In this document: in pieces, positions 892 through 50,813 of the stretch
Layout: each line of letters starts with the position of its first letter
How positions within the stretch are numbered: position 1 is the stretch's first letter
From: Rubripirellula amarantea
GTDB taxonomy: Bacteria > Planctomycetota > Planctomycetia > Pirellulales > Pirellulaceae
Assembly: GCF_007859865.1 (NCBI RefSeq)
Contig: NZ_SJPI01000001.1
Location: forward strand, 3,605,241 to 3,669,240
DNA length: 64,000 bases
Direction: 5' to 3'
Program-made: the position numbers and the translations under genes
Notes under the pieces: generated by a model
The model's database searches: none
What the model was told of the DNA's origin: nothing
The model's input: only the letters and a program-made list of their open reading frames with translations

Positions 892-1110
892 TTGGCAACT
901 AGTTTGTCGCCTTGATAGCCTCATGGCGATGCCGACCTAAGCTTCGTCGAATCGAGCATGTGTGCGTATTGTCGCGTCCTTGCGGCGATGTAGCACGATT
1001 CATTGAGGCAACTGCCGCGTTTTCGAAACGGCACAGCCTTTGCCACTGATGGCTTTCTCTTGAAAGCGCCGATACGGTCGGTCAGTCATCAGCAAGCAAT
1101 AGGGTTTCGT

Positions 1111-2766
1111 ATGTGCAGGCAACGCAAGCATCAATGTCGAATAGGAAAGTTCGAAGCTTTGGAAGGTCGGCGCTTGTTGGCTGCTAATGTCGCAGCATCC
1201 TATTCGGACGGCGAACTAGTGCTTGCTGGATCGTTCGACGACGACCACTTGTCCATCGAGGCGAACCCGGCGACCCGGCATGTGATTGTTCGAGGTCGTG
1301 ATGGAACGCTCATCAACGGACGATCAGCCATTGGTTTCAATGCGGTTAGCGACTTCAAAGTGAATCTGAAGGGTGGCGAAAACGAAATCGTAATGCAGTC
1401 GTCCACGTCCGCGATGGCTGTATTCGACACGTTGAATCTTCGCGTCGGAAATGGAAGCGATGTCGTTTGGGTCGACAAAATGCGATTCACCGAATCATCG
1501 ACCATCGTGACACTACGTGGTGATGACTTAGTCGTCGTTTCCGACTCTCAACTATCGAACCTTCGCTTGAACGTCGGCCTAGGCGACGATGGCGTGCAAT
1601 TGATCGATAATCGAATCGATGGCAGTTCGCGATTAGTTAGCGAAGGCGGTAGCGATTCAATCGACATCCGTAGCAACACATTTCTAAACTCGCCGCTGTA
1701 CGATCGCTTTCTCATTTCGGCTGGGGAAGGTGACGACAACATCAACTTCGTTGCCAACACCATTCGCACTCACAGCGATGTTTGGATCGACGGTGGCGGT
1801 GGAAACAACTCTGGACTTATTGAAGGCGTCACACCGCTTTCATTTGAGGGAACGTCGCTCAGTGGACCCTGGCGAGCGGTAGATGGAATACGTTCGAATC
1901 CCGGTTGGATCAAGTATGAAACGTTACACGATGCGTCCACGCACGATGTTACGGTCACGCTCGTTAACGGTCGAGCTAATATCATGGGAACGCAGTTCGA
2001 CGATCGGATCTTTGTCGACACGCGATTGAGGTCGGGTGGGCGTCAGGAACTTACCGTTCGAGGCTTACCGGGAACGACGATCAACGGCGAAGAAACGTTG
2101 GTGCTTGACCACGTCGACATGATTGTCTTGAGTCTCTTCGGAGGCGACGACTTGTTCTCGATGAGCGACTTACAGCGTGGACTAGGAGTCCAGAATACCA
2201 CCTACGAACGGTTCGACGTTGATTTAGGCGGCGGCGATGACTTCTTCCAAATCGTATATCCTCGAGTCACGGGCGTCTTCTCGGTGATCGCAGGCGACGG
2301 CGACGACTATGTCAGCATCAATCGTGTTGATGCCACTCAGTTGGTCGTTGAGGCTGGGAATGGAGACGACGCGGTCGAGGTGAACCTTTCTTCGATCGAT
2401 TCGCTAACAGTGCGTGGAGGGGAAGGCAGTGATACGTTTGATCTGATCAACAACAACTTCGCGACCTACTTGGTGACCATCCACGGCGAGGCTGGCAATG
2501 ATACGTTGATTTGGGACCAAAACCTGATCATCGGCGATCCTCTTTTAATCGTGAGTGGTGGGACGGGAACGGATACGCTGTTTTACGACAATCGAAACTA
2601 TCGCAGTGGAATCCGGATGGGACCGAGCATCATCGGGAGTGAATTTGAGGACAGTCTGCTCGACCCATTTGTTTGGCCCGACAATCAAGATCCGATGAGT
2701 CTGCACCCGCTAGATTACCTCTGGCGGCTTTACGGTCGGCTCGTGCCAACCTGGGACGAGCTTTAG
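1111..2766 (+). CDS. LEPR-XLL secreted protein with RTX-like beta-roll repeats
   Basis: This is a 551-residue protein from the ATG at 1111. The frame is open back to a TTG at 1003, but the ATG places a basic stretch directly before FEALEGRRLLAA, as in the other LEPR-XLL proteins here. The motif is known in planctomycete exported proteins, probably as part of an export signal. The body has about ten spaced repeats of the form GxGxDxh (GNGSDVVWV, GEGDDNINF, GDGDDYVSI, GEGSDTFDL, GNDTLIW and similar). These are spaced more widely than classical RTX nonapeptides and suggest a parallel beta-helix or beta-roll that could bind calcium. No enzyme domain is visible. The C-terminus ends WRLYGRLVPTWDEL. 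Function is unknown; a surface or secreted structural role is inferred. Confidence 0.82.
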   Translation: MCRQRKHQCRIGKFEALEGRRLLAANVAASYSDGELVLAGSFDDDHLSIEANPATRHVIVRGRDGTLINGRSAIGFNAVSDFKVNLKGGENEIVMQSSTSAMAVFDTLNLRVGNGSDVVWVDKMRFTESSTIVTLRGDDLVVVSDSQLSNLRLNVGLGDDGVQLIDNRIDGSSRLVSEGGSDSIDIRSNTFLNSPLYDRFLISAGEGDDNINFVANTIRTHSDVWIDGGGGNNSGLIEGVTPLSFEGTSLSGPWRAVDGIRSNPGWIKYETLHDASTHDVTVTLVNGRANIMGTQFDDRIFVDTRLRSGGRQELTVRGLPGTTINGEETLVLDHVDMIVLSLFGGDDLFSMSDLQRGLGVQNTTYERFDVDLGGGDDFFQIVYPRVTGVFSVIAGDGDDYVSINRVDATQLVVEAGNGDDAVEVNLSSIDSLTVRGGEGSDTFDLINNNFATYLVTIHGEAGNDTLIWDQNLIIGDPLLIVSGGTGTDTLFYDNRNYRSGIRMGPSIIGSEFEDSLLDPFVWPDNQDPMSLHPLDYLWRLYGRLVPTWDEL

Positions 2767-4443: not shown

Positions 4444-4767
4444 TTAGACCATTTCCTTCAGGCCCTTCAAAGGACGAATGGCAAGCTTCTTGGTAGCGGG
4501 TTTTGGCTTGAGCCAGATTTCTTCGCCGTTGGCAGGGTTGCGGCCCTTGCGCTTTGGCTTTGCAGGAACGTCCTTCAGAATGATCTTGCACAGGCCAGGG
4601 ATCGCGAATTGACCAGGACCACCCTTGGAGATGGCCTTGTCGATTTCGGCGGTCAGTGCATCAAACACTGCTGCGACGTCCTTTTTCGATAGTTCAGTCG
4701 ATTCAGCGATGTTCGCCAAAATCTGAGTCTTGGTCGGTGCCTTCGGTGCTGCGGCAGCTTTCGCCAT
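4444..4767 (-). CDS. HU/IHF family DNA-binding protein
   Basis: This 107-residue protein is a histone-like nucleoid protein that bends and compacts DNA as a dimer. After an Ala/Lys/Pro-rich leader (MAKAAAAPKAPTK) it has the HU alpha-helical part (TKTQILANIAESTELSKKDV as landmark), then the beta-arm with the signature GRNPANGEEI and a basic C-terminus. The frame extends 43 codons upstream, but the ATG at 4767 gives the normal HU length and follows a GAAGAAGG element. The basic N-terminal leader is longer than in E. coli HU. A strong terminator follows, so it is probably a single-gene transcript. Confidence 0.93.
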   Translation of the reverse strand: MAKAAAAPKAPTKTQILANIAESTELSKKDVAAVFDALTAEIDKAISKGGPGQFAIPGLCKIILKDVPAKPKRKGRNPANGEEIWLKPKPATKKLAIRPLKGLKEMV

Positions 4768-4960
4768 GGGGTGAACCTTCTTCAGTAGCAAGGGGATGGG
4801 ATGGGCCGGCAAAAATTTCCGTCCACGTGTTTTGTACGGGCAAAGTGTTAAGTCCGCGAAGCAATCGTTGCAACCCGGCTTTCGCCAAAAAACCAACGAT
4901 TTGCGGGCTTTCCATTATGGGGGCTTGACGGACCACTAAACAACCGATCTCGGATTATCG

Positions 4961-7900
4961 TCAAGCAAGCTCGCCCAAGACAGTGTCGATTCCCTCTTCA
5001 CTAAGCGTTTTGCTCTCGCTTAATGAATCGGCCGTTCGTGACTGAAGAGTCAGTTGTTCACTCACCGATTGCATCGCTGCATCCACGGAAACATCGTTAT
5101 TTGCGGTGTTTTCGAAGGATGCGGTCGCTGGCGAATCAACTAAGTCGGCAGGAGTATCAGTCCACACGTCCGCTTCACCGGTGGATAACACCAATGCCGA
5201 CGACGAGGAACCTTCGGGCGCTGGTGCGTAGACATTTTCCGCACTAGTCGACGAAACTGCTGCCGATTCGGCCTCGGGGACCGTCGATCCGAGCGTCAAA
5301 GAATTCGTGCTGGCAGCCGAATTTGCCGCAATTTCAGCCGATTCAGACGCCGTTTGGGTCAGCAAACTCGCTGCCGCAGTGGTCGTCGTCGTTGATGTCG
5401 TCGTGAACTCGACTTCGCTTTCTTCGACACTGACCTTGTACAAACGCAGGCCGTCGACTTCGCCGCGAGCTTCCACGCGGCGGTCGTTGGAAGCCGGAAG
5501 CGTGACTTCAATGTTCTCGACCTCCGACGTCGTGGCGTCGGTCAGCGTGCCTCGAATCGTCAGGTTCTGGCCGGAAGCATCCAATTGAGCCGTCGCGTTC
5601 TCGATGGTATCCGTCGACGGCGTGGTTGTCGTCATCAGACTCGATTGGCCGGGAGCCACGGCGACTAACAACGATTGCCGCGGCGTGGACCGTAGGAAGT
5701 CGCGAATCGAAATGTACTCCGGTCGCAGTGTGCCCAATGTGCTCTGAATTGTGGCATTGCCATCGTCGGCGTCACTGGAAACGGGAATCGACTGAGCTTG
5801 TTCGCCGCCCACCAAGAATGGAATAGCGGGAACTTCGATCGTGTATTCGCCTGGCAACACACCTGGGAAGGACACACCTGTGCTGGAAGCCGTACCGGCA
5901 ACGTTGACCTCTTCACCAAGAATGTTGTTGCCTCGCAGCATGATGTTCGATGAGCCTAGTCGAAGTGCCGATGATCCCGTGATCGAGTAAACGATGTCGC
6001 GAGCAACGTAGTCGAGTACCGTAATCGAGATCGTGCCTGTCGCGGTCATGCCCGTCGAGTCCGCAACCGTGTAAGTAAACGAATCGCTTCCCGAGAACGT
6101 CGCCGATGGTGGCGTGTAGAACAGGCGACCGGTTGCAGAATCTAACCGCACAGATCCGCCCGCGGTTGTCGAAGCATCGAAGGTCGACACCGAAAGCGTT
6201 TCACCACTGTCGACGTTAATCGCATTGTCGAGTTGGAACACGACGGTTTCACCGGCACCGCGATTAAGCGTTTGGGTGAGGTTGGACGCTGGAGGCGGAT
6301 CATTCACAGCAGCAACGGTGAACGTCGCGGTTCCCACCGCAATCCCACCGCCAGTATCACGAATCGTGTAGGTCACCGTTTCGACACCGTTGAAGTTTGC
6401 TGCGGGAGCATAACGAATGGTGTTACCGTCGGCGCTAACCGAAGCCGTTCCGCCTTGCGAAGGAGTCCCCACGCTGTTGACGACAAAGGCTTGATTGTCG
6501 GCGTCCCGCGTGTCATTGGCTCGCACATCGTAAGTCGTCGACGCAGCGTCCTCGGTGATCGAGAATGAGTCATTGACTGCGGTGGGCGGATCATCCGCCG
6601 TGATCACGGTCACGTTAACCGAAACCGTTGTCGTCAATGTTCCGTCGCTTAAGGTGTAGGTAAAGCTATCGCCACCCACGTATCCAGCGGCCGGTGTGTA
6701 GACAAGCGCGTTGTTCGTCGAATTGATCGTGACGGTGCCGCCATTGTTCGGCGTTGAAACGGCCGTGATGGTCAATGTTTCGCCAGTGTCGGGAGCACTA
6801 CTGTCGTTGGCGAGGACATCAAGCGTATTGTTGGTCGAGTTCTGATCCACGGTGACTGAATCGGCAACACCGGTCGGTGGGTCATTCACACCGGTGACCG
6901 TTACCGTCACCGATGCATCTTGCTGAATCCCGGTCGAGTTGCTGACTCGGTACGTGAACACGGCATTGCCGACAAAGTTCGCTGCGGGCGTAAAGTTGAC
7001 GCTGCCACCCGAAAGTGCAACGGTGCCGCCAGATGCCGGTTGTGTCACCGAAACAATGCTAAGCGAACCAGTGCCGGTCACTTCGTCATTAGCGAGGACG
7101 TCGAACGAAGTCGTTGCCGAGTCCTCAGCAACGGTAAACGTATCGGGTCGGACGATAAAGTTTTGTCCGATCGCGAGCGAAACGCTTCCATACGAGATGC
7201 TGTCTTCGGCATCGATTCGTTCGTCGACACCGAAGATCAACGTTTCGCTGTTGCTGTCCGTCGCCGGTGCACTGCGAATCGTGACACTGCCTGATGCGAT
7301 TGCTTCCATTTCGATCGTGGCGATCAAACTCTGGGCTTCATTGGTGGCTTGAAGCTGGCTGCTAACCGCACCGAGTTCGTCAATGATGCCTGTGCCAAAC
7401 GTTCCCTTTCGAGTCAACGTAAAGTCATCGGCATACTGGATCGGCGTACCAGCGACCCGTCGAACGAGTGTGCTGTCGAACAGGATGTCGGCATAGGCAG
7501 CGAACACGCCGGGTTTGTTGAACAAGCGAGCATCAGCAGCGGTGAATGTTAAGAGGAATTTTTGACCAACATCAAGTGAAGTGATCGCGTTGCCTTGGGT
7601 ATCCGTCACTCCCAACAAGATCTCAACCAACGGTTCTCCCGCGACGGCAACATTGAACGATTCGCTTCGAACATTGCCAGCGGCATCGGTTAACTTGATC
7701 GCAAACGATTGACTTCCCAATTGAGATTCAACGGGGGACCAATTGATCACACCGGTGCTCGCATTGATTGTCGCACCAGTAGGGCCGCTGGTGATTTCGT
7801 AAACCAAGCCGGTGCCCTCTTCGGTGCTGACCAAGTCCGATATGTACGGACGTCCGACATTGGCGGTTTTCAGTGCCGATGCGACCACGGAACTCGGAAG

Positions 7901-9847
7901 CGTCCGGTCGTAGTTGATTGTGATAGCCGGTGACAAACTGCTGGAATCGGTTCCAACTTTGGATCGAGCAGCGACGTTGTAGGTGCCGGTTCCCAAAGCA
8001 GCGAAGTTGTTCGTGGTCACCACTGCGGTAGTGCCACTTGCGACCACCGTACCCAAGACGACGTTGTTGGCCGTATTGACCAATTCGATTTGCTGGCCTG
8101 CTACCGTGCCTGATACGAGGAAGCTAAGTGTGCCCGCATTCGTAATGTTGTCGGTGTTACTGATGCCCGTGTCTGAACCAGCTTGCAAGTCGATTGATGT
8201 TGGCGTGATCGCGCCTTCACCTTCAAACGTGAACTGGATCACTTCCGTGTCGACCGGGGAACTCGCGCTGGCACGAACCCCAACCGTGACTGAGACATTT
8301 CCTTCGAAGCCAGAAACTGGCGTCACGGTCAATTGACCGGTCGTGGGATTGACGTTCACCGTGGCATTGTTCGATGTGGTGCTGGCGAAGTACTGCACCG
8401 GGTCGCCTTCGACGTCAACGCTGCTGAGCGTCAGCGTGGCTGGTTGATTGCCGCTAACGGGCGTCGGTGTTGGAATATCGAGCAAGTAGGGTTGGCCATT
8501 GCTGTTGGTACCGGTGTCGGCGACCACGGTCACAGCAACGGTTTCCGAGAAGGAATTCCCGTTTGAATCGGTGACTGTGAAAGTCACATTGGTGGTTCCG
8601 GTTTTGTTCCCAACGCCTTTAAGCATCACAACCGAATTTTCGGTGTCGTCGAATACGGTTACCGATTCGATAACAACATCCGTCACCGGCCGATTTTCGG
8701 TGGTGTTGTTGACGGCCGTCGAACTGATTGCTTCACGAACATCAAAGCCTTCGACCAATTGACCAAACACGGAATGGTTGAAGTCTAGGTGCCGCGTGTC
8801 GGTTTCGGTAATGAAGAACTGCGAGTTGTTGGTGTCGTCAAGCGAAGTCTTCGCGAACGACAATACTCCTTCACCGATGTGCTGCAGATCAGGATGGAAT
8901 TGATCGCTGAACGTGCCGAGAGTAGACCCGAGCGAACCACTGCCATCGGGACTGCCAGTTTGCAAGACGAAGCCATCGACGACGCGGTGGAAAATCTGTC
9001 CGTCATAGAAACCGTCCTCGGCCAGTTCAATCACTCGTCCGGCCGGGCGTGGCGCACGTTGTTCGAACAACTCGAACACCATGTCGCCATAGGTGGCCAT
9101 GTCGATTCGAATCGAACGGTTGCCTGTCAGAACCGTGGCGGTCAGCAGCGTTGGGTCTTCGACGGTGACCGTGGTGGTCAGGGGGCCGTTGCCCGGATCG
9201 TACGCATCTACCGGCACGTGAAGCGGAGCGCCTGATCGAACCGTCAAATCACCAATGGTTTGGATCGTGGGCTGGTCCGATGTCGGGATCGGAACCTCGG
9301 CGGCGGCGCTAAGGGCCGCGAGTGATTGAACGCCCGTCAAACGAGTGCCGTTGGGAAAGTCCCAAGTTGGGATCTCGACGATATTCAATTGGGTGGGACC
9401 TGCGATTGGCAAGAATTGCCGATTGGCATCGGTCACTTCGGTGAACGGAAGGTCATCTTTTCCGTCGGCGAAGAGCTCTTTTTGAGCCGTGCAAGCGGGA
9501 CACCAATGCGCACCATAGAACTCAACGCCCTTGGCAGCCAAGTCTTTTGCAAACTGGACCAAGTCAGGTGCTGCTTCACCTTCGCCGACGCCCTCGAGCT
9601 GTAGCCCACTGGTCTGGCTAGCCACTTCGCTGGAGGAACTGGTGCCGTCAGTGAACAAAAGTTCCATGTCGCCCGCCATCAATTGACGTTTTTCGAGCGA
9701 TTCGAGTAACAGTCGGCCTCGCTTGGGTTCAGCGGGCGAGTCCGAGCCTGGCGAGAACAAGCCCCCGAGCAATCGGCTAAGCGAAAGACGAGATTTTGAA
9801 TTGCGATTGGCTTTCGGAGTCATCGAATGACTGGTTCGTGAAGGCAT
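4961..9847 (-). CDS. Giant LEPR-XLL surface protein: VKOR-type thioredoxin, cyclophilin, cohesin-like and tandem-95 domains
   Basis: This 1628-residue protein appears to be a secreted or surface folding/adhesion protein. In order: a LEPR-XLL-like motif (LESLEKRQLMAG, residues 48-59); a thioredoxin-like domain (about 93-190) with CPAC at C116/C119 and the cis-Pro motif IPTW at 159-162, most like the thioredoxin domain fused to VKOR enzymes; a cyclophilin peptidyl-prolyl isomerase domain (about 243-400) that keeps R288, F293, Q296 and H358; Ig-like segments (about 400-730); a cohesin-like domain (about 736-895); four tandem-95/cadherin-like repeats with the DVLAND motif or a variant (about 897-1280); and a Ser/Thr/Ala-rich tail. 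The C-terminus ends EGIDTVLGELA. ATG at 9847 gives a basic N-terminus as in its relatives. No transmembrane VKOR domain is present. Client proteins are unknown. Confidence 0.88.
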   Translation of the reverse strand: MPSRTSHSMTPKANRNSKSRLSLSRLLGGLFSPGSDSPAEPKRGRLLLESLEKRQLMAGDMELLFTDGTSSSSEVASQTSGLQLEGVGEGEAAPDLVQFAKDLAAKGVEFYGAHWCPACTAQKELFADGKDDLPFTEVTDANRQFLPIAGPTQLNIVEIPTWDFPNGTRLTGVQSLAALSAAAEVPIPTSDQPTIQTIGDLTVRSGAPLHVPVDAYDPGNGPLTTTVTVEDPTLLTATVLTGNRSIRIDMATYGDMVFELFEQRAPRPAGRVIELAEDGFYDGQIFHRVVDGFVLQTGSPDGSGSLGSTLGTFSDQFHPDLQHIGEGVLSFAKTSLDDTNNSQFFITETDTRHLDFNHSVFGQLVEGFDVREAISSTAVNNTTENRPVTDVVIESVTVFDDTENSVVMLKGVGNKTGTTNVTFTVTDSNGNSFSETVAVTVVADTGTNSNGQPYLLDIPTPTPVSGNQPATLTLSSVDVEGDPVQYFASTTSNNATVNVNPTTGQLTVTPVSGFEGNVSVTVGVRASASSPVDTEVIQFTFEGEGAITPTSIDLQAGSDTGISNTDNITNAGTLSFLVSGTVAGQQIELVNTANNVVLGTVVASGTTAVVTTNNFAALGTGTYNVAARSKVGTDSSSLSPAITINYDRTLPSSVVASALKTANVGRPYISDLVSTEEGTGLVYEITSGPTGATINASTGVINWSPVESQLGSQSFAIKLTDAAGNVRSESFNVAVAGEPLVEILLGVTDTQGNAITSLDVGQKFLLTFTAADARLFNKPGVFAAYADILFDSTLVRRVAGTPIQYADDFTLTRKGTFGTGIIDELGAVSSQLQATNEAQSLIATIEMEAIASGSVTIRSAPATDSNSETLIFGVDERIDAEDSISYGSVSLAIGQNFIVRPDTFTVAEDSATTSFDVLANDEVTGTGSLSIVSVTQPASGGTVALSGGSVNFTPAANFVGNAVFTYRVSNSTGIQQDASVTVTVTGVNDPPTGVADSVTVDQNSTNNTLDVLANDSSAPDTGETLTITAVSTPNNGGTVTINSTNNALVYTPAAGYVGGDSFTYTLSDGTLTTTVSVNVTVITADDPPTAVNDSFSITEDAASTTYDVRANDTRDADNQAFVVNSVGTPSQGGTASVSADGNTIRYAPAANFNGVETVTYTIRDTGGGIAVGTATFTVAAVNDPPPASNLTQTLNRGAGETVVFQLDNAINVDSGETLSVSTFDASTTAGGSVRLDSATGRLFYTPPSATFSGSDSFTYTVADSTGMTATGTISITVLDYVARDIVYSITGSSALRLGSSNIMLRGNNILGEEVNVAGTASSTGVSFPGVLPGEYTIEVPAIPFLVGGEQAQSIPVSSDADDGNATIQSTLGTLRPEYISIRDFLRSTPRQSLLVAVAPGQSSLMTTTTPSTDTIENATAQLDASGQNLTIRGTLTDATTSEVENIEVTLPASNDRRVEARGEVDGLRLYKVSVEESEVEFTTTSTTTTTAAASLLTQTASESAEIAANSAASTNSLTLGSTVPEAESAAVSSTSAENVYAPAPEGSSSSALVLSTGEADVWTDTPADLVDSPATASFENTANNDVSVDAAMQSVSEQLTLQSRTADSLSESKTLSEEGIDTVLGELA

Positions 9848-39536: not shown

Positions 39537-42500
39537 TCAGAACAGAAGCCACTCGAATTCGTCTCGAAGTACTTCGTCGACCGATTGGGAACGCTCGATG
39601 GAAGTTGGCGGTGCGAGATATTCGAACGACTCCGCACTTCCGCCACTTGCATTGACTGTGACCGTCACCGTGGCGGTATCAGTCCGCAAATCAAACGCGT
39701 AAGCACCGCCCGAATTATTGACGGGGCGGTTATCCAGCCAAGAACCAACAATGGCAACATCGCCATCCACGGCGACTGCAATTCCGTATTGATCAGCGGT
39801 TGTGACTTGCTCGTTGACCAGAATACGTGTTTGCTGCCATCCTGCGGTTAGATCTTCGAACAAGTACGCTTCACCCGAGTCCGAACCGCCAATATCGGCT
39901 TGCGGTGATCCAGCGACTATCCGATTACCATCAAACGAAACTGTAGTACCAAATCGGTCGCCAGCGATGCCGTCGTCGGCGAGTAACTTGGCTGTTTGGC
40001 CCCAGTTGTTCGAGCCACCCGTGTTTCGGTCAAACACATAGACGGATCCGACTTGGTTGAAACCACCTTCATCATCTAGAGGCGATCCTACAACCAGCGT
40101 TGTTCCATGGATGGAAACACTTGTGCCGAAGTTATCGCTTGCCATGGCGTCTGGGGCTTCGATAGCCTTGAGCTCACCCCAGAATTCTGTTCCGAACCGG
40201 TCACGTCGGAAAATATAAACGGCTCCTGTGTCAATCGCGACGCCATCATGTTTAAACGCGCCCACTGCGATGTCGTCGCCTTCAATCGAGACCGAATGTC
40301 CGAACCGATCGCCAGCTCCTTGGGTGCTGCCGGTTAACTTTTTGACTTGTCCCCAATTCGATACGCCACCTTCATCGCGATTGAAAACGTAAGCGGCGCC
40401 TGAAGCACTTCCTAGTGGATCGGCTGTACTAGCCCCAACGACAATTGTGTCGCCCGAGAGATCTATGCTGCGACCAAATAGATCGCGTTTGACGGTATCG
40501 TCACCGTAAATTTTCTTGACGCGTCCCCAATTGTCGACACCGCCTTCATTTCGATCGTAGATGTATACGGCACCTGCTCGGAATCCGAGGTCGCCGTCGT
40601 ATTGAGCGCTTACGGCGACGGTATCGCCATCAATTGCGACACTCCAACCAAACGATGTGTTGGCAACCGAGTCACCAGTAAGCTGAGCCACTTGAACCCA
40701 CGAGTTGGGATTAGTGCGTTGGTAGACAAATGCCGATCCTGCGTTCGTAAAGTTACCAGGATCATCAAGGAATGATCCCACCACTGCAAAGTCGCCATCA
40801 ACGTCGACGCTATAGCCGAACCGGTCGCCTCCACTCGCGGCATTGCTGACAAGTTCTGCATCGCTAATCGCGATCGAGTAATCAAACGAGTCTGTTCCAG
40901 TGAAGCCAACGTCTGGTGTGTACGTGAAGGTGCCATCGCCGTTGTCGACCACGGTTCCATTGTCGGCTTCTGTATGACTGACCACGTTTGCATTGCCGCT
41001 TGGTGCGTCGTTAGTTAGCACTGAAATTGAGACGTTCGTTTGTTGCGTCGTAAGCGCCGAGTCGTCAATGGCGTCCGGTCCTGGCGGATCAACGGTGATA
41101 GTCAACGTGTCCGAACCAGTGTCTCCATCCGAGTCCATCACAGTCACTGAGATCGTGTAGACGCCACCGACAGCGTAAACATGCGAAAGGTCCAGGTCCT
41201 CATTGGGGCCAAGGTTCACAATCACCGGGGGCGATCCATCGCCGTAGTCAATCGTGGCAGTTTGCGAATCGAAGGTTCCCGCATCCGCAATTGGAATCGC
41301 TAGTCGACTAAATTTACCAAACTGTGTTGGGGTAATTGTTTCTGACGCACCAAGCTCAATTGTTGGCGCATCGTTGGCTACGTCGAGCGTAAATGATTCC
41401 GTTGCAACTAAACCATCAGAGTCGGTGACGGTTAGCGTTACGACTTGAGTGTTCGGTCCATCCGCAACGCTGCCTGTCCAGGTCCACGTGCCGTCACCGT
41501 TATCGATAACCGTGCCGTAGTCTGTCGTGATCGTTGACGTGAAACGTAATGTTCCGGTGGTGCTGAGTGTCTCACCTTCGTCGCCAGCGATGACTGCATT
41601 ATCGGCGGAGATGAGTGGGAATGTGATTCGCCACGGTTCTCGCCCATGCAAACCGTCATCGGCGGCAAAGAAGAATTGGTCATCGACCACGGTGGGAAAG
41701 AACGCGTTGTAGGACACGTTTGGATAGACATCGACGGAATTGGTATTCGGAACCGGATGAATGTCATGAAGCAACTGCGTTCCCGCGGCTGTTCCATCAC
41801 TGACCCAAGGTTCGATACCGTTGACACCATCGTCGGCAAAAAAGATGAGTTTGTCGTGAAAGGCGGTGAGCCCAAACGGGTAATCGCTGTTCGTTTCAGG
41901 GTACAGGGTTCCGTCAAAAACATCTGCGACCACACTCGCCGTTCCGCTGTCGATCTTCCAAAGTTCAAAGTCCTGATCAACACTCGCGTCGGTGTAGGCG
42001 ACGAAGAAAAGTGTGTCACCGACGGCGGTCAACTGATCGGGGTTGCTGTACGTGTAGGCCGCCGATTCAAGATCCGCCACCATCGTCGTGCCCGTGATCA
42101 CTCCGCTGCCGTTTCGCGTCGTTCGCCAGATTTCGTCACTGTTGGCGGCAAAGTAGAGCTCGCCATCGTAGGATTCCATCGCACCAACGACACTGGAACC
42201 AACAGATGTCACAGCGTCAAGGTTGGTGGCTTGGTTGCCGTCAGCCACCCATAACAAATCCGCATCCGTGAAGAACAAGCGATTGTCATAACTTAGGAGT
42301 GCTGCCGGCTGATCCAACGTCGTGCTGGTAGCAACATCGAGTACCTTTTCCGTTGTTGTGCCGTCGCTCGTCCAAAGCTGAGTGATGTTGGACGAGTCTC
42401 GTGCGGTGAAGTAAACACGATTTCCCACTGCGGTCATGTTTCGAATGTAGCTCCCTGATATCCCCAGGTTAATGTCCTGCACGAACACCGTACCAGCGGC

Positions 42501-44516
42501 AGTTCCATCGCTCTTCCACAGTTCGTACCCGAGGTCGTTCAAAGAGGAATCTTGGGCGCGAGCGGTGAAAAATGCAGTCCCAGAGGCTACGGCGAAGTTA
42601 AACGGGTACGACGAAAACGAACCAGGAAACAGGTCTTTTAGTTGTGATGTTCCCGCCACGGTTCCGTCGGTCTTCCAAAGTTCATGGCCATCGGTACCCT
42701 GGCCCGAGAATAGAACGGTGCCATTGCCGAGATCTCCAACCGTATTTTCCGTACCGGAATAGGCGAATGGATAGGAATCGGCAATCTCGATGGTCCCAGT
42801 TTCCGTTCCATCGGACGTCCACAGCTTGCTTTGCGAGCGAAAGTACAACTGACCGTTTGCGGCAGCAGTTGATACGGGATACGACCCGGAACTGGAAACG
42901 TTGCTGGTCAGTTGAACCTTGTCGTTCAAACTACCCGAGGTCACAAATAAGTCTGGCTGGTCAGGTTCGGTAAAGAACAACTTGGTTGTCCCTGCAGTTG
43001 CCGAACCAATGCCGTAGTAATATCCGCCAATGGTAGGCTCGACCAGAATGGTACCCGAAGCGGTTCCGTCCGTCCGCCAAAGATCAGACGTCGCTTCGTT
43101 CTTGACAAAGTAGTAGTAGTTCGATGTTGTCGCCACAGGATCAAGACTCGAGCCAAAGTACCCAGCGGTCAGATCTGTGATGAGCGTCGTTCCTGCGGTG
43201 GTCCCATCGCTCTTCCACAGTTCATAACCATTGACTCCATCATTCGCTGTGAAAATCAGCGTGCCATTAAGATTCGTAAATTCACCAGGCTGACTGCCGT
43301 AGAGGTAGCTGTAGGCGGGATTGGTACCTTGAGCGATATCCTTGACCAGCACGACGCCGCCTGTCGTGCCATCGATACTCCAAAGCTCGGTGCCAACATT
43401 ATTGGTCGCGGCAGTATCCGTGGCTGCGAAGAACAGCTTGCCGCTAACGTCCAGCAGGTAGCTAGGGTATTCGACACCCGCGAGTTGCTGAGTTCCGGCG
43501 ACGGTTCCATCACTTGACCAGAGCGTTGGAGGTTCGTTTTCTTCATTCGCAACAAAGTACAACAGCGATCCCGACTCGGTCATCTGAGAAACATTGCTTG
43601 AATAGTAGGAACCATACCCGTTGAACCCAACGTTAATGTCATCAAGCAGAAACGTTCCGGATGCAGTTCCATCGCTGACCCACAGTTCTCGCCCTGAACC
43701 ATCGACATCCGCAGTGAAGAACAGCTTTCCGCCAGCTTCCACCATCGACTGCGGGTAGCTGCCGTAGGATCCATAGTACGACGCGCCGTCTTGCAGGTCT
43801 TTGACGATTTGCGTTCCTGACAGAGTACCGTCACTGGCCCAAAGCTCTTCACCGAGAGGATCGCCATTGACATCGACGCCTTCGTAATGAGTGAAGAACA
43901 GTTTGCCTCCAGCAGCCGTGAAATATCCGTCGAGTGGATTCGATGCGAAGTCATCTTTGATGATGACAGTCCCCATTGTGGTTGCGTCTACTTCGCCAAT
44001 CGCGTTTCCGCCGTAGCCAACTCCATAGGTGTAACTAAAGCCGCTAAAGAACAAATCTCCATCGACAACAGCTTTTTGACCAGATGCAACAAAGTCATCG
44101 ACCAATTCAAACGTGCCCGCGACAGTTCCGTCGGTGAACCAAAGTGAGTTGTGCGCCCACTCATAGGGAACGGAATCGTTCAGTGCAGTGGCATTAAACA
44201 CCAAGCCGCCGGCAAAAGGTTCGAAGCCATTGGGGTATGACGACGATGTACCCTCGTAAATGTCTGCAAGTCGAAACGTGCCGCTAGCGGTGCCATCGCT
44301 CCGCCACAATTCGGTACCAAATTCATCTTTGTTGGCGAAGATCGCGACATCGCCAATTGTCGCACTTTGTGTGGGGGCGGACGCAGAATTCGCACTGACG
44401 ATGTCTTGAACAAGGTTGGCGGCGAGCAACCGACGGTCTTCCAGAACTTCAAATTTGCGTCGACGATGTTTGCGGTGCTGGCTGACAGGACGACTACGGC
44501 GGAGGCGATCGGACAT
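39537..44516 (-). CDS. Giant LEPR-XLL protein with ELWxxDGT repeats, PKD/tandem-95 domains and FG-GAP propeller (paralogue B)
   Basis: The 1659-residue protein is inferred to be exported and surface-exposed. A basic leader precedes FEVLEDRRLLAA (about residues 24-35). Residues about 40-960 hold about 13 clear ELWxxDGTxxGT repeats (for instance ELWRSDGTASGT, ELWKSDGTAAGT) plus about five degenerate ones. Two PKD/Ig-like domains follow (about 965-1130), then a tandem-95 repeat (about 1135-1215, ISVLTNDAPSGN). Seven FG-GAP-type repeats end the fold (about 1222-1625, e.g. DRFGYSVDVDGDFAVVG, DNFGTSVSIHG). The C-terminus is VDEVLRDEFEWLLF. The gene at 45870-50813 has the same order throughout, so the two arose by duplication. 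It lies 70 bases after the TIGR03032-type gene on the same strand. Ligand unknown. Confidence 0.88.
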   Translation of the reverse strand: MSDRLRRSRPVSQHRKHRRRKFEVLEDRRLLAANLVQDIVSANSASAPTQSATIGDVAIFANKDEFGTELWRSDGTASGTFRLADIYEGTSSSYPNGFEPFAGGLVFNATALNDSVPYEWAHNSLWFTDGTVAGTFELVDDFVASGQKAVVDGDLFFSGFSYTYGVGYGGNAIGEVDATTMGTVIIKDDFASNPLDGYFTAAGGKLFFTHYEGVDVNGDPLGEELWASDGTLSGTQIVKDLQDGASYYGSYGSYPQSMVEAGGKLFFTADVDGSGRELWVSDGTASGTFLLDDINVGFNGYGSYYSSNVSQMTESGSLLYFVANEENEPPTLWSSDGTVAGTQQLAGVEYPSYLLDVSGKLFFAATDTAATNNVGTELWSIDGTTGGVVLVKDIAQGTNPAYSYLYGSQPGEFTNLNGTLIFTANDGVNGYELWKSDGTTAGTTLITDLTAGYFGSSLDPVATTSNYYYFVKNEATSDLWRTDGTASGTILVEPTIGGYYYGIGSATAGTTKLFFTEPDQPDLFVTSGSLNDKVQLTSNVSSSGSYPVSTAAANGQLYFRSQSKLWTSDGTETGTIEIADSYPFAYSGTENTVGDLGNGTVLFSGQGTDGHELWKTDGTVAGTSQLKDLFPGSFSSYPFNFAVASGTAFFTARAQDSSLNDLGYELWKSDGTAAGTVFVQDINLGISGSYIRNMTAVGNRVYFTARDSSNITQLWTSDGTTTEKVLDVATSTTLDQPAALLSYDNRLFFTDADLLWVADGNQATNLDAVTSVGSSVVGAMESYDGELYFAANSDEIWRTTRNGSGVITGTTMVADLESAAYTYSNPDQLTAVGDTLFFVAYTDASVDQDFELWKIDSGTASVVADVFDGTLYPETNSDYPFGLTAFHDKLIFFADDGVNGIEPWVSDGTAAGTQLLHDIHPVPNTNSVDVYPNVSYNAFFPTVVDDQFFFAADDGLHGREPWRITFPLISADNAVIAGDEGETLSTTGTLRFTSTITTDYGTVIDNGDGTWTWTGSVADGPNTQVVTLTVTDSDGLVATESFTLDVANDAPTIELGASETITPTQFGKFSRLAIPIADAGTFDSQTATIDYGDGSPPVIVNLGPNEDLDLSHVYAVGGVYTISVTVMDSDGDTGSDTLTITVDPPGPDAIDDSALTTQQTNVSISVLTNDAPSGNANVVSHTEADNGTVVDNGDGTFTYTPDVGFTGTDSFDYSIAISDAELVSNAASGGDRFGYSVDVDGDFAVVGSFLDDPGNFTNAGSAFVYQRTNPNSWVQVAQLTGDSVANTSFGWSVAIDGDTVAVSAQYDGDLGFRAGAVYIYDRNEGGVDNWGRVKKIYGDDTVKRDLFGRSIDLSGDTIVVGASTADPLGSASGAAYVFNRDEGGVSNWGQVKKLTGSTQGAGDRFGHSVSIEGDDIAVGAFKHDGVAIDTGAVYIFRRDRFGTEFWGELKAIEAPDAMASDNFGTSVSIHGTTLVVGSPLDDEGGFNQVGSVYVFDRNTGGSNNWGQTAKLLADDGIAGDRFGTTVSFDGNRIVAGSPQADIGGSDSGEAYLFEDLTAGWQQTRILVNEQVTTADQYGIAVAVDGDVAIVGSWLDNRPVNNSGGAYAFDLRTDTATVTVTVNASGGSAESFEYLAPPTSIERSQSVDEVLRDEFEWLLF

Positions 44517-45869: not shown

Positions 45870-48800
45870 CTAGAAAAGACCCCAATCGAGTTCAGCGGCC
45901 AAGACTTCATCGACAAGCTCGGCCGAATCGTTGGAACTCAGCGGGGCATAGAACTGTGGCAACTCGTTGTTGGCTGGATTCACTGTCACCGTTACGGTCG
46001 CTACATCGGTTCGCAGGTCGAACGCATATGCGCCGCCGGAATTGTTGGCAGGCCGATTGTCGAGCCAGGAACCCACAATCGCTGTATCACCACCAACTGC
46101 AACTGCGATCCCATACTGATCCGCTGTTGTGACTTGCTCGTTGACCAAGACACGCGTTTGTTGCCACACGCCACCGAGATCTTCAAAAAGGTAAGCCTGA
46201 CCAGAGTTATCGCCACCACCATCGGCTTGAGGTGATCCTGCAACGATGCGGGTGCCATCGATAGATACCGTGGTTCCGAAGCGGTCACCTGCGGATCCTC
46301 CATCAGCGAGCAACTTTGCTGTTTGTCCCCAATTGTTGTTGCCACCGGTGTTGCGATCATACACGTAGACGGACCCGAGCTGATTCACCCCGCCTTCGTC
46401 ATCAAGCGGTGCTCCGACGGCGACAGTCGTCCCTCGTATTGCGACACTCGTACCGAAATTGTCTGCTGCTGCTCCGTCAGGAGCTTCGAGAACTTTGAGT
46501 TCCCCCCAGTTGTCGACACCAAAGCGATCACGCTTGAATAGGTATGCCGCTCCGGAGTCATTACCCACACCGTCATGCCGAAACGCTCCGACGACGATAT
46601 GTTCGCCATCGATCGACACCGAATGCCCGAACCGATCGCCCGCGGCTTGCGTGCTACCCGTCAGTTTCTTGACTTGACCCCAGTTGTTCGCTCCACCCAT
46701 GTCACGTTTAAACACGTAGGCCGCGCCCGAAGCACTTCCCAAGGGATCCGCAGTGCTCGCCCCGACGACGATCTCGTCACCGGACAAGTCCACGGATCGA
46801 CCGAATAGGTCACGCTTGACGGTGTCGTCGCCATGCAGTTTCACCACTTGGCCCCAGTTATCGGGTCCACCTTCGTTGCGTCCAAACACGTAGACAGCAC
46901 CGGCTCGGAACCCGAGTTCTCCATCGTATTGAGCACTGACAGCAACCGTGTCGCCGTCGATTGCTACGCTCCACCCGAACGATGACTGGGCGACTGCATC
47001 GCCGGACAATTGTGCAACCTGCGTCCATGAGTTGGGTTGGGTACGCTGATAAACAAACGCTGAACCTGCGTTGGTCACACCACCCGGGTCATCTGAGTAA
47101 GCACCGACGACCGCGAAGTCTCCGTCGACATCAACGCTATAGCCTAAACGATCGCCAACGCTAGCAGTGCTGCTGACCAGTTCCGCATCGGTGATTGCAA
47201 TTGTGTAGTCGAATGAATCGGTGCCAGTAAAGCCAGTGTTAGGGGTGTAAGAGAATGTTCCATCGCCGTTGTCGGCAACCGTTCCGTTGGAAGCTTGGGT
47301 ATTACCAACGACGCCAACGTTCCCAGCAGGACTGTCATTGGGCAACACTGAAATCGTGACGTTCGTATTTTCGGTTGAAACGACTGCGTCATCGACTGCA
47401 TTTAATTCGGGTGGGTCAACTGTGACCACGAGCGTGTCAGATCCAGATCCTCCATCGGAATCAACTACATTCACGGTGATCGTGTAAACGCCCCCGGTGT
47501 TGTAATTGTGGAATAGATTTAGATCATCGTCAGGACCAAGATTGACTACGACCGGTGATGAACCATCACCGTAATCAATCGTGGCAGTCTGCGAATCAAG
47601 CACACCGGCATCGGCAATCGCAATTCCACTGCGAGAGAACGAACCATTCGCTGTTGAGGGAACCGTTTCGGGAGATCCCAGTTCGATCGTCGGGGCTGCG
47701 TTGGTTATGTTCAGATCGACCATTTCCACGGACGTAAAGCCATCCACATCGGTAACGGTCAGGGTTAACACCTGAGTGCCAGGGCCATCCGCGACGCTAC
47801 CCGTCCATGTCCAGGTGCCATTGGTGTTGTCGACCACGTTGCCAAAGTCGGCGGTGATCGTGGAAGCAAACTGAAGCGTACCCGTCGCTGTCAGAATCTC
47901 GCCCTCTTCACCAGAAACACTGGCAACATCAGCAGCAACTAATGGGAATGTAATTCGCCAAGGCTCTTGTCCATGGATGCCATCATCAGCGGCAAAGAAA
48001 AGCTGATCATCCATCGCGACAGGGAAAAAATTGTTGTAGGAGTACGCTCCATAAACATCGAGTGAACCTGCCTCAGGGATCGGAAGGACATCGTAGACCA
48101 TTTTCGTTCCTGCTGCGGTTCCATCACTAACCCAAGGCTCAATGCCGTGGATACCATCGTTGGCAAAGAAAACTAGTTTGTCTTGGAAGGCCGTCAAGCC
48201 AAAGGGAATGTCATCAACCGATTCCGAATACATCGTTCCATCGAAAACATCTTTCAGCAAGCTCGCCGCACCACTTTCGAGTTTCCACAACTCCAGATCA
48301 TCACCTAGCGATGCATCCGCATGCGCGACAAAGTACAAGGCGTTTCCAGCGGCAGTCAGTTCTTGGGGTAACGCATTAACGCCACCCGCAGCGTTCAGAT
48401 TTGCCACCATCGTGGTGCCCGTGATATTGCCGCTGCCATCGCGAGTTGTGCTCCAGATTTCGTCGTTACTTCCGTTGAAGTAAATTTCGTTGTTGTGGAT
48501 TTCCAACTCACTGACGTTGGAAGTGACGGAATCCAGGTTTGTCGCTTGATTGCCGTCGGCGACCCATAGCTTGCCACCTTGGACGAAAAACAAGCGGTCG
48601 TCAAAGCTGGTTAGCGAACTGGGATTCACGAGCGAATTGCTATCGGCAACGTTAGTTACCTTTTCGGTGGTCGTGCCATCGCTAGTGAAAAGTTGCATCT
48701 GCCAAGTAGGAAGATCACGAGCGATAAAATAAACCTGGTTTCCAACCACGGTCATTTTGTTAACCAGCGACGAACTGCTGGTATGAATGTTTTCAACCAG

Positions 48801-50813
48801 CACCGTGCCGGCTTCGGTGCCGTCGCTCTTCCATAACTCGAAATTGACATCGTTATTGGAACCGTCGCGAGCTCTTGCATAAAAGAACGCTACGCCGTTG
48901 ACGACGGCAAAATTAGTAGGTGAGGACGAAGTGTTGCCGCTGTAAAGCTCTTTCAATTGAGAAGTGCCGGCGACGGTGCCATCAGTCTTCCAGAGTTCGA
49001 AGCCGCTCGGTCCAAGTCCCGGAAACAACACGGTACCGTTGCCAAGGTCTCCGATGATGTTGTCTTGATCCGTAAACGCTGGGAACCTGAGGGTATCGGC
49101 AAGCACGATTGTGCCTGAATCCGTTCCGTCGGATACATACAGCTTTGCGTCAGAGACAAAGTAGATTTTGTCGCCAACCTGTGTCACTGACGTGGGAGCC
49201 GATCCTAAGCTCGAAAAGTTGTTGGTCAACTGAACCTTGTCATTGGTGCTACCGCTGGTCACGAAGAGATCAGGGGAATCGAGTTCAGCGAAGAACAATT
49301 TTGTATTGCCGGCAACTGACGTGCCGATGCCATTCTGCGTTCCTCCGATAGTGGATTCAACGACAACGGTCCCTGCTGCCGTACCGTCGGTACGCCACAG
49401 GTCGGTCGTTGCATCATTCTTGACGAAGTATGCATGACTAGATGTCGTCGCCACCGGAGTGATGTTTGAGCTGGATGCACTCGCCGTCAAATTAGTGATC
49501 AGTGAAGTGCCGGTTGACGTGCCATCACTGGTCCATAGCTCAGAACCATTGATGCCATCGTCTGCGGTGAACAACAGCGTTCCATTGAAGTTGGTGAAAT
49601 CTCCTGGTGAACTGTCGGCGGTCCCCGAATTAATATCTTTGACTAGGACGATACCGCCGGTCACACCGTCGATGCTCCATAGTTCGGTGCCTTTGTTATT
49701 TGACGCTGAAGTATCGGTAGCGGCAAAGAACAACTTGCTGTTGACGTCCAACAAGCCGTAAGGGTTTTCAACTCCGGACAGCTTTTGTGTTCCTGCTGTA
49801 CTGCCGTCGCTAACCCATAATTCGGCTGGCGACGAATCGTCGTCAAACGCAGTGAAATACAATAGCGATCCCGATGCAGTCAGATCGCTAGCGTTACTAG
49901 AATAGAAGTAGTAGTAGCCATCGTTGTTTGCGTCGATATCCTTAAGCAAGAATGTTCCGCTAACGGTGCCGTCGCTGACCCACATCTCTCGTCCAAATCC
50001 ATCGGACTCCGCTGTAAAGAAAAGCTTTCCGCCGGCAGCAGTTAGCGATTGAGGATACGAGCCATAGTCGTAATAGTAGCTTTGGCCAACTTGAATATCC
50101 TTGACCACTTTTGTGCCTGACAACGTGCCATCGCTAACCCAAAGTTCTTCACCTATCGGATCCCCGTTACCATCGCTGCCCTCGTCGTGGACAAAGAATA
50201 GTTTGTCGCCAACGGCAGCAAACTCTCCACTCATGGGAGTAGATTCAAAGTCGTTTTTGATGATCACCGATCCCAGTGTGGTTCCATCAACTTTGCCTAA
50301 CGCAATGCCGCCGGAACCGGCTCCGTAAGTATAGATTTCACCGCTAAAGAACAGATCGCTGTCAACAACGGCTTTGCTCACTGGCACAAAGTCATCGACT
50401 AATTGATAAGTGCCTACGACAGTGCCGTCGGTGTACCAAATCGCTGTTCTTGGTCCGCCCTCACCAGCCGATGCGTCAAAAGTCTCAGCTTCAAACACTA
50501 GACCGCCGGCAAAGGGAAGGAAGTTTCTTGGGTCAGAAGATGCAACGCCTTCATTGATATCCAAAAATCTCATCGTGCCCGCATTTGAGCCATCGCTGAT
50601 CCAAAGTTCGTTTCCATAGGTGTCTGCGTTCGCAAAGATCGCAACGTCGCCAATGGTGGCACTCTCGGTAGGTGAGTCCGACGCGTTTGTATTCACGAGG
50701 TCGGAAACCAGATTCGCGGCTAGCAAACGGCGGTCCTCTAGTGATTCAAAACCGCGGCGGCGAGCAAGACGTTGACGACGAGAGGTCGAGGATAAGCGCG
50801 AACGTTTTTTCAT
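45870..50813 (-). CDS. Giant LEPR-XLL protein with ELWxxDGT repeats, PKD/tandem-95 domains and FG-GAP propeller (paralogue A)
   Basis: The 1647-residue protein has the same layout as the gene at 39537-44516. A very basic leader (MKKRSRLSSTSRRQRLARRR) precedes FESLEDRRLLAA. About 13 ELWxxDGT-type repeats with degenerate copies fill about 40-955. Two PKD/Ig-like domains (about 957-1125) and a tandem-95 repeat (ISVLPNDSPAGN) follow. Seven FG-GAP-type repeats occupy about 1214-1615. The C-terminus is LVDEVLAAELDWGLF. ATG at 50813 starts the basic leader directly. Similarity between the paralogues runs through the whole length but with many changes, so the duplication is not very recent. It is the first gene of the minus-strand trio with the TIGR03032-type gene and paralogue B. 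Confidence 0.88.
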   Translation of the reverse strand: MKKRSRLSSTSRRQRLARRRGFESLEDRRLLAANLVSDLVNTNASDSPTESATIGDVAIFANADTYGNELWISDGSNAGTMRFLDINEGVASSDPRNFLPFAGGLVFEAETFDASAGEGGPRTAIWYTDGTVVGTYQLVDDFVPVSKAVVDSDLFFSGEIYTYGAGSGGIALGKVDGTTLGSVIIKNDFESTPMSGEFAAVGDKLFFVHDEGSDGNGDPIGEELWVSDGTLSGTKVVKDIQVGQSYYYDYGSYPQSLTAAGGKLFFTAESDGFGREMWVSDGTVSGTFLLKDIDANNDGYYYFYSSNASDLTASGSLLYFTAFDDDSSPAELWVSDGSTAGTQKLSGVENPYGLLDVNSKLFFAATDTSASNNKGTELWSIDGVTGGIVLVKDINSGTADSSPGDFTNFNGTLLFTADDGINGSELWTSDGTSTGTSLITNLTASASSSNITPVATTSSHAYFVKNDATTDLWRTDGTAAGTVVVESTIGGTQNGIGTSVAGNTKLFFAELDSPDLFVTSGSTNDKVQLTNNFSSLGSAPTSVTQVGDKIYFVSDAKLYVSDGTDSGTIVLADTLRFPAFTDQDNIIGDLGNGTVLFPGLGPSGFELWKTDGTVAGTSQLKELYSGNTSSSPTNFAVVNGVAFFYARARDGSNNDVNFELWKSDGTEAGTVLVENIHTSSSSLVNKMTVVGNQVYFIARDLPTWQMQLFTSDGTTTEKVTNVADSNSLVNPSSLTSFDDRLFFVQGGKLWVADGNQATNLDSVTSNVSELEIHNNEIYFNGSNDEIWSTTRDGSGNITGTTMVANLNAAGGVNALPQELTAAGNALYFVAHADASLGDDLELWKLESGAASLLKDVFDGTMYSESVDDIPFGLTAFQDKLVFFANDGIHGIEPWVSDGTAAGTKMVYDVLPIPEAGSLDVYGAYSYNNFFPVAMDDQLFFAADDGIHGQEPWRITFPLVAADVASVSGEEGEILTATGTLQFASTITADFGNVVDNTNGTWTWTGSVADGPGTQVLTLTVTDVDGFTSVEMVDLNITNAAPTIELGSPETVPSTANGSFSRSGIAIADAGVLDSQTATIDYGDGSSPVVVNLGPDDDLNLFHNYNTGGVYTITVNVVDSDGGSGSDTLVVTVDPPELNAVDDAVVSTENTNVTISVLPNDSPAGNVGVVGNTQASNGTVADNGDGTFSYTPNTGFTGTDSFDYTIAITDAELVSSTASVGDRLGYSVDVDGDFAVVGAYSDDPGGVTNAGSAFVYQRTQPNSWTQVAQLSGDAVAQSSFGWSVAIDGDTVAVSAQYDGELGFRAGAVYVFGRNEGGPDNWGQVVKLHGDDTVKRDLFGRSVDLSGDEIVVGASTADPLGSASGAAYVFKRDMGGANNWGQVKKLTGSTQAAGDRFGHSVSIDGEHIVVGAFRHDGVGNDSGAAYLFKRDRFGVDNWGELKVLEAPDGAAADNFGTSVAIRGTTVAVGAPLDDEGGVNQLGSVYVYDRNTGGNNNWGQTAKLLADGGSAGDRFGTTVSIDGTRIVAGSPQADGGGDNSGQAYLFEDLGGVWQQTRVLVNEQVTTADQYGIAVAVGGDTAIVGSWLDNRPANNSGGAYAFDLRTDVATVTVTVNPANNELPQFYAPLSSNDSAELVDEVLAAELDWGLF

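Follow-up and report, generated by a model that had tools for sequence, protein, structure and literature searches.

What does a giant planctomycete protein of surface type do with a thioredoxin domain and a cyclophilin set one after the other behind an export motif? The question is raised by a gene in the window, by which we mean the whole stretch of 64,000 nucleotides of Rubripirellula amarantea DNA that was analyzed. The initial annotation had pointed there to a VKOR-type thioredoxin domain fused to a cyclophilin at 8648-9571. That segment, read on the minus strand, corresponds to residues 93-400 within the single open frame 4961-9847, and the sequence signatures named for it (FYGAHWCPACTAQKELF, EIPTW, and GVQSLAAL) are all present in the translation. 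The features that enter the argument are the following.

4961-9847, minus strand: whole gene, encoding a giant modular protein of 1628 aa (ORF and translation)
9665-9721, minus strand: planctomycete extracellular (LEPRxLL-type) N-terminal motif, residues 43-61 (Pfam PF07595, Planc_extracel)
9269-9580, minus strand: VKOR-partner-type thioredoxin domain, residues 90-193 (phmmer, family profile, Foldseek)
9491-9502, minus strand: CPAC motif with C116 and C119 (sole cysteines of the protein)
9362-9370, minus strand: cis-proline loop P160-T161-W162 (alignment invariance)
9119-9283, minus strand: probable first half of an Ig-like domain, about residues 189-243, boundary approximate (model strands; joined-half scans)
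8654-9106, minus strand: cyclophilin domain, residues 248-398 (Pfam, Foldseek, motif positions)
8513-8641, minus strand: probable second half of the Ig-like domain, about residues 403-445, boundary approximate (model strands; joined-half scans)
6281-8206, minus strand: Ig/cadherin-like repeat region, residues 548-1189 among the matches listed, with further stretches present (Pfam, NCBIfam)

Planc_extracel scores 27.4 bits at residues 43-61, above its cut-off of 25.5, which upholds the export motif of the initial annotation; judged by this motif, the protein is likely exported. An LExR-type motif lies upstream of the domain in 73 of the 80 loci that we call the named set (the best 80 of 133 relatives), some of the others starting at a contig edge, and the relatives' open frames are mostly >1100 aa. 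The repeat region matches the Pfam families Big_13, He_PIG, Big_9, and Cadherin as well as NCBIfam tandem-95. Residues 736-905 (7133-7642, minus strand) have no family of their own among the best Pfam stretches, and phmmer recovers the stretch in 61 loci of the named set (best 80 of 133), some of them contig-cut. Elsewhere in the window, two giant look-alikes of 1659 and 1647 aa (39537-44516 and 45870-50813, minus strand) have LExRxLL-type N-termini by eye, and a 366-aa gene lies between them; in Pfam at E ≤ 0.001, the giant at 39537-44516 matches solely FG-GAP (FG-GAP_2) and Ig/PKD/cadherin families. The N-terminus of a 587-aa protein at 1003-2766 (plus strand) shows, by eye, an LExR-like motif; Pfam gives nothing for this protein at E ≤ 0.001.

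On the whole 1628-aa protein, no Pfam or NCBIfam thioredoxin model matches at E ≤ 1. The isolated domain matches no Pfam family at E ≤ 1, and its NCBIfam matches are weak glutaredoxin-like ones (0.028 and 0.1) that fall far below the cut-offs. When 30 family members were scanned singly in Pfam at E ≤ 1, Thioredoxin_2 was found in 26 and Thioredoxin in 24, with a best value of ∼7e-5; in NCBIfam the commonest matches of the same 30 members were glutaredoxin types, with mycoredoxin in 27 (best 1e-4). A phmmer search of the PDB returns as its top hit the thioredoxin domain of Synechococcus VKOR (3kp8, 1.6e-13), the best other chain reaching 0.041, and a 30-row family profile finds the VKOR partner domain at 4.6e-19, with the next kind at 6.7e-5. 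The model of the domain (30 rows; pLDDT 93.8, pTM 0.83) points the same way: Foldseek hits 1-6 are all Synechococcus VKOR chains, 3kp8 superposes with a TM of 0.79 by query and 0.86 by target at 37% identity, and the later thioredoxins among the structure hits listed have TM ≤ 0.51. Judged against PDB sequences and structures, phmmer, the family profile, and the predicted fold thus agree that the VKOR partner type is the nearest. The thioredoxin assignment made earlier for residues 90-190 found no echo in the Pfam and NCBIfam thioredoxin models and was borne out by phmmer and the family profile through their match to the VKOR partner. The VKOR membrane domain had been described as absent, and no match to it was found in the protein or in its own genome.

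A cyclophilin with the key Arg, Phe, Gln, and His residues had been proposed for residues 240-400, and Pfam confirms it: Pro_isomerase (PF00160) covers residues 248-398 with an E-value of 1.2e-37 (130.1 bits against a cut-off of 21.7), aligned from model position 2 to 159 of 159. The active-site equivalents are R288, F293, Q296, Q343, F345, L354, and H358, among which we take R288, F293, Q296, Q343, F345, and H358 to correspond to R55, F60, Q63, Q111, F113, and H126 of human CypA. A model of residues 60-460, built from a 104-row alignment, has a mean pLDDT of 92.6 and a pTM of 0.88, and titles and aligned lengths identify all 50 of its listed PDB matches as cyclophilins or cyclophilin-containing complexes; among the Foldseek hits listed, the cyclophilin TM by target reaches 0.93. 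The identities of the thioredoxin and cyclophilin parts are near certain, and the match to the domain pair is far above chance level.

The same model shows strands on both sides of the cyclophilin, which is probably nested inside an Ig-like domain. In Pfam the joined flanks match Big_9 over nearly its full length at 0.0017 and He_PIG at 0.01, all below the curated cut-offs; taken singly, the first half matches nothing and the second fits the end of He_PIG better (0.00087) than the join does. On the next Ig-like domain, a profile of the joined flanks spans the junction at 2.8e-7, where the halves reach 2.2e-5 and 0.0016; on another Ig domain, the E-value of the second half by itself (4.1e-10) is better than that of the join (1e-8). 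Because these scans favor the join in part and the second half alone in part, we regard the nesting as likely, short of proven.

The pairing of thioredoxin and cyclophilin domains is conserved across many relatives. A query with both domains matches 149 of 149 genomes of the protein's own family, many of them through the cyclophilin part alone. The family set comprises 111 loci among the matches listed (30 and 74 fetched from the family search, 7 from a phylum sample), and 100 of these have a thioredoxin domain while 11 have the cyclophilin only; at least 3 of the latter (L201, L208, and L209) start right at the edge of a contig. The 100 thioredoxin domains among the matches listed divide into 89 with CxxC, 10 without either cysteine, and 1 that is cut inside the domain (L197). 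Counted by genome among the matches listed (n = 149), 87 have a CxxC copy, 4 have Cys-less copies only, 8 have only a cyclophilin part or a cut locus, and 50 have none; Cys-less and CxxC copies stand side by side in 6 genomes among these matches. The seven cyclophilin active-site positions are exactly kept in 80 of the 89 CxxC copies of the family set (among the matches listed).

The named set, the best 80 of 133 relatives, gives a similar picture. Both domains are found in 79 of its 80 loci, the exception (L102) ending at a contig edge, and 79 of the 80 are recorded as planctomycetes, L044 simply as a bacterium; carriers include Rhodopirellula baltica, R. europaea, Rubripirellula obstinata, Stieleria, Aeoliella, and Blastopirellula. 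CxxC is present in 75/80, a figure that is biased because one of the two search patterns demands CxxC, and the named and family sets are not independent since they share assemblies (e.g., L032/L003). Among these best 80 of 133, the thioredoxin-to-cyclophilin spacing is 52-61 residues in 77 of the 79 loci with both domains, and in 7/80 the frame runs for >300 residues before the domain is reached, a hint that the two domains move together. The phylum sample covered 392 genomes with ≤12 candidates scored per genome, and 23 genomes matched: 8 from the own family, 9 from one genus of another family, and 6 others whose matches by eye resemble ordinary thioredoxin/glutaredoxin proteins. As for the surroundings, an HU-like DNA-binding protein gene (4444-4896, minus strand) adjoins the 4961-9847 gene. 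Near the named loci (best 80 of 133), an HU-like gene was found in 33/80, FliM in 9/80, and uvrA and thrS in 0; uvrA starts ≤6 kb upstream here and is absent near the relatives, so the upstream side is not conserved in those loci whose sequence covers it. The 1003-2766 gene, which lies farther out than the flanks covered, had no counterpart near these loci either. No functional partner was seen in the neighborhood comparison of these 80 loci (best 80 of 133).

C116 and C119 are the only cysteines in the 1628-aa protein. Sixty-two named proteins (best 80 of 133) have both a complete frame and a recognized motif, and in 58 of them the cysteines after the motif are exactly the CxxC pair; of the other four, two are without cysteine, and L068 and L108 differ, L068 being the one single-cysteine copy of the named set (best 80 of 133). 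The two other giants of the window, similar at the N-terminus by eye, have zero cysteines, so a low cysteine content is the background there and the CxxC pair stands out.

As the best explanation of these observations, we propose, with a probability of roughly 0.45, an exported envelope foldase acting on envelope proteins. The N-terminal motif would direct export to the envelope or to the cell surface, where the thioredoxin domain would form, break, or reshuffle the disulfides of envelope proteins via C116-C119. The cyclophilin, probably held in an Ig-like domain, would turn the X-Pro bonds of the same clients, and the Ig/cadherin array would anchor or space the pair. Both folds, the CxxC present in 89/99 domains (among the matches listed), the retained cyclophilin set, the narrow range of the spacing, and the CxxC pair as sole cysteines after the motif in 58 of 62 named proteins support the foldase reading. 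It is weakened by the Cys-less copies (10/99 and 9/9, see below), by the varied middle of the CxxC, and by the four other cyclophilin places in the own genome, which mean that this protein is not the genome's sole prolyl isomerase candidate.

The Cys-less copies deserve a closer look. The initial annotation had tied its reading to the retention of the catalytic residues among relatives; this holds for most of them, and the residues are lost in a minority, namely, 10/99 family domains and 9/9 copies of a genus of another family. P160, which we take to be the thioredoxin cis-proline, and W162 are invariant in the 104-row alignment, and W115, Q122, P160, and W162 are unchanged in 17/17 rows that are without both cysteines. 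On a quick tree of the 104 proteins, with the motif columns left out, the CxxC state changes at least 10 times by the fewest-changes count; with the single-Cys row counted as lost there are 11 changes, 7 of them forced by well-supported branches. The changes nearly always take both cysteines together, and the cis-proline never changes. From the VKOR-type ancestry of the domain, we infer that they are losses and not gains. Between the two cysteines, 25 different residue pairs occur (family set, among the matches listed), which implies a loosely tuned redox potential. In the genus of another family (L119 and L121-L128), where both cysteines are missing in 9/9 copies, all seven cyclophilin positions are kept in 1/9 and at least one is changed in 8/9, two of these eight differing at a single position; its protein is a candidate double pseudoenzyme. 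A link between CxxC loss and cyclophilin change was considered and dropped: the raw counts before ancestry (86/86 CxxC rows intact at five positions, 8/18 rows without full CxxC changed) looked strong, but the median sign-test p is 1 once ancestry is allowed for, the differing pairs being too few for significance.

Since some relatives have lost the cysteines, the domain must do something besides redox chemistry. In thioredoxins, the backbone of the substrate is bound by the cis-Pro loop, and as this loop is kept in the Cys-less copies, these may still bind peptides; the domain would stay on as a peptide-binding module around the unchanged loop. Perhaps, then, most carriers have a redox-active domain, and in some it serves for binding only. 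The same observations lend themselves to a second explanation, which we consider unlikely: a structural surface protein or modular adhesin that took in its two enzyme folds for binding, with catalysis incidental or serving self-folding. The giant Ig/cadherin array fits such a protein, as do the repeated changes of the CxxC state beside an unchanged cis-Pro and Trp and the altered cyclophilin active site in 8/9 copies of one genus. However, CxxC is found in 89/99 family domains and the cyclophilin set is exact in 80/89 (among the matches listed), and the retention of both in an otherwise cysteine-free protein points to selection on the pair.

If the pair does act as a foldase, its redox supply matters. 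At E ≤ 0.001, the models for VKOR, DsbB (PF02600), DSBA (PF01323), and Thioredoxin_4 (PF13462) have no match in the own genome; in 14 control genomes, the models matched in 3 (VKOR), 6 (DsbB), 8 (DSBA), 9 (Thioredoxin_4), and 10 (DsbD_TM). The own genome has one DsbD_TM place, whose frame ends in its own CPNC thioredoxin-like part. The lack of a VKOR, DsbB, or DsbA match together with the one DsbD leads us to favor DsbD-fed reshuffling or small-molecule oxidation over a quinone-linked oxidase. It also bears on a third explanation, a role in reductive or oxidative stress in which the DsbD-reduced thioredoxin domain would repair oxidized surface thiols with the cyclophilin as an unfolding helper. 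The genome does encode a DsbD_TM protein with a CPNC end, and the VKOR and DsbB models found no oxidizing partner there, but no direct link ties DsbD to the protein, and DsbD may serve cytochrome maturation instead; we hold this role to be quite improbable.

VKOR itself is above the cut-off in 55/149 genomes of the family. Many VKOR domains of these genomes sit in frames of 400-640 aa, and the 14 VKOR loci scanned (L210-L215 and L235-L242; 6 long-frame, 8 short-frame) have no match to the thioredoxin profile. That the thioredoxin domain works in trans with a separate VKOR, as the fused domain does in cis, is very improbable even though the VKOR partner domain is its nearest relative in sequence and fold and VKOR occurs in 38/87 genomes with a CxxC copy against 17/62 without (CxxC copies among the matches listed; odds ratio 2.05, Fisher p 0.058, ancestry ignored): the own genome has no VKOR match and 49/87 genomes with a CxxC copy have none either, which contradicts such a partner as a general rule.

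The likely clients of the proposed foldase would be envelope proteins, with the cysteine-rich YTV proteins as the best candidates. YTV has 30 matches in the own genome and occurs in 148/149 family genomes and 0/14 controls; four YTV stop-to-stop frames hold 21, 24, 32, and 55 Cys, two of them being cut by the locus end. PMC8567305 places cysteine-rich YTV proteins in planctomycete wall preparations and cites König 1984, Liesack 1986, and Hieu 2008. Cysteine richness and presence in wall preparations are what suggested envelope clients to us. Co-occurrence adds nothing here and was set aside as support: YTV is in 148/149 genomes, whereas 50/149 are without the protein or a cyclophilin-only relative (among the matches listed), so YTV does not depend on the protein. 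A bolder version, that in Pirellulaceae without DsbA, DsbB, and VKOR the protein would be a main envelope disulfide handler, a bacterial single-chain PDI-cyclophilin counterpart that matures cysteine-rich wall proteins beyond the cytoplasm, strikes us as distinctly doubtful.

Among the matches listed in the open-access literature, no title or abstract concerns such a thioredoxin-cyclophilin fusion. What is new is how the domains are combined: each is known by itself, and their arrangement here is conserved. Members of the family have cysteine-rich wall proteins, yet the Pfam models for the usual disulfide-making enzymes find nothing in the own genome; the conserved pair behind the export motif offers a concrete candidate, open to experiment, for the handling of wall-protein disulfides. 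In addition, repeated cysteine loss with the fold kept offers a natural series of how a thioredoxin may become a binding-only domain.

Several known systems share parts of this arrangement. With the thioredoxin domain of Synechococcus VKOR (3kp8/3kp9), the R. amarantea protein has in common the CxxC, the PTW loop, and a TGV-SL-AL segment; the Synechococcus domain carries two further cysteines in the phmmer alignment that are absent here, and it is fused to VKOR, whereas here no VKOR domain is matched and the domain sits in a giant exported-type protein. With the cyclophilin-type prolyl isomerases (PF00160), it shares a near-full domain match and the catalytic set, but here the domain is probably inserted in an Ig-like domain and is paired with a thioredoxin domain. 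The planctomycete LEPRxLL Ig/cadherin surface proteins have the same export motif and repeat array; the two look-alike LExRxLL-type giants of the window are cysteine-free, unlike the thioredoxin-cyclophilin protein. In the endoplasmic reticulum, PDI and cyclophilin B bring disulfide chemistry and proline isomerization to secreted clients as separate eukaryotic proteins; the pairing of predicted activities is similar here, on one bacterial polypeptide.
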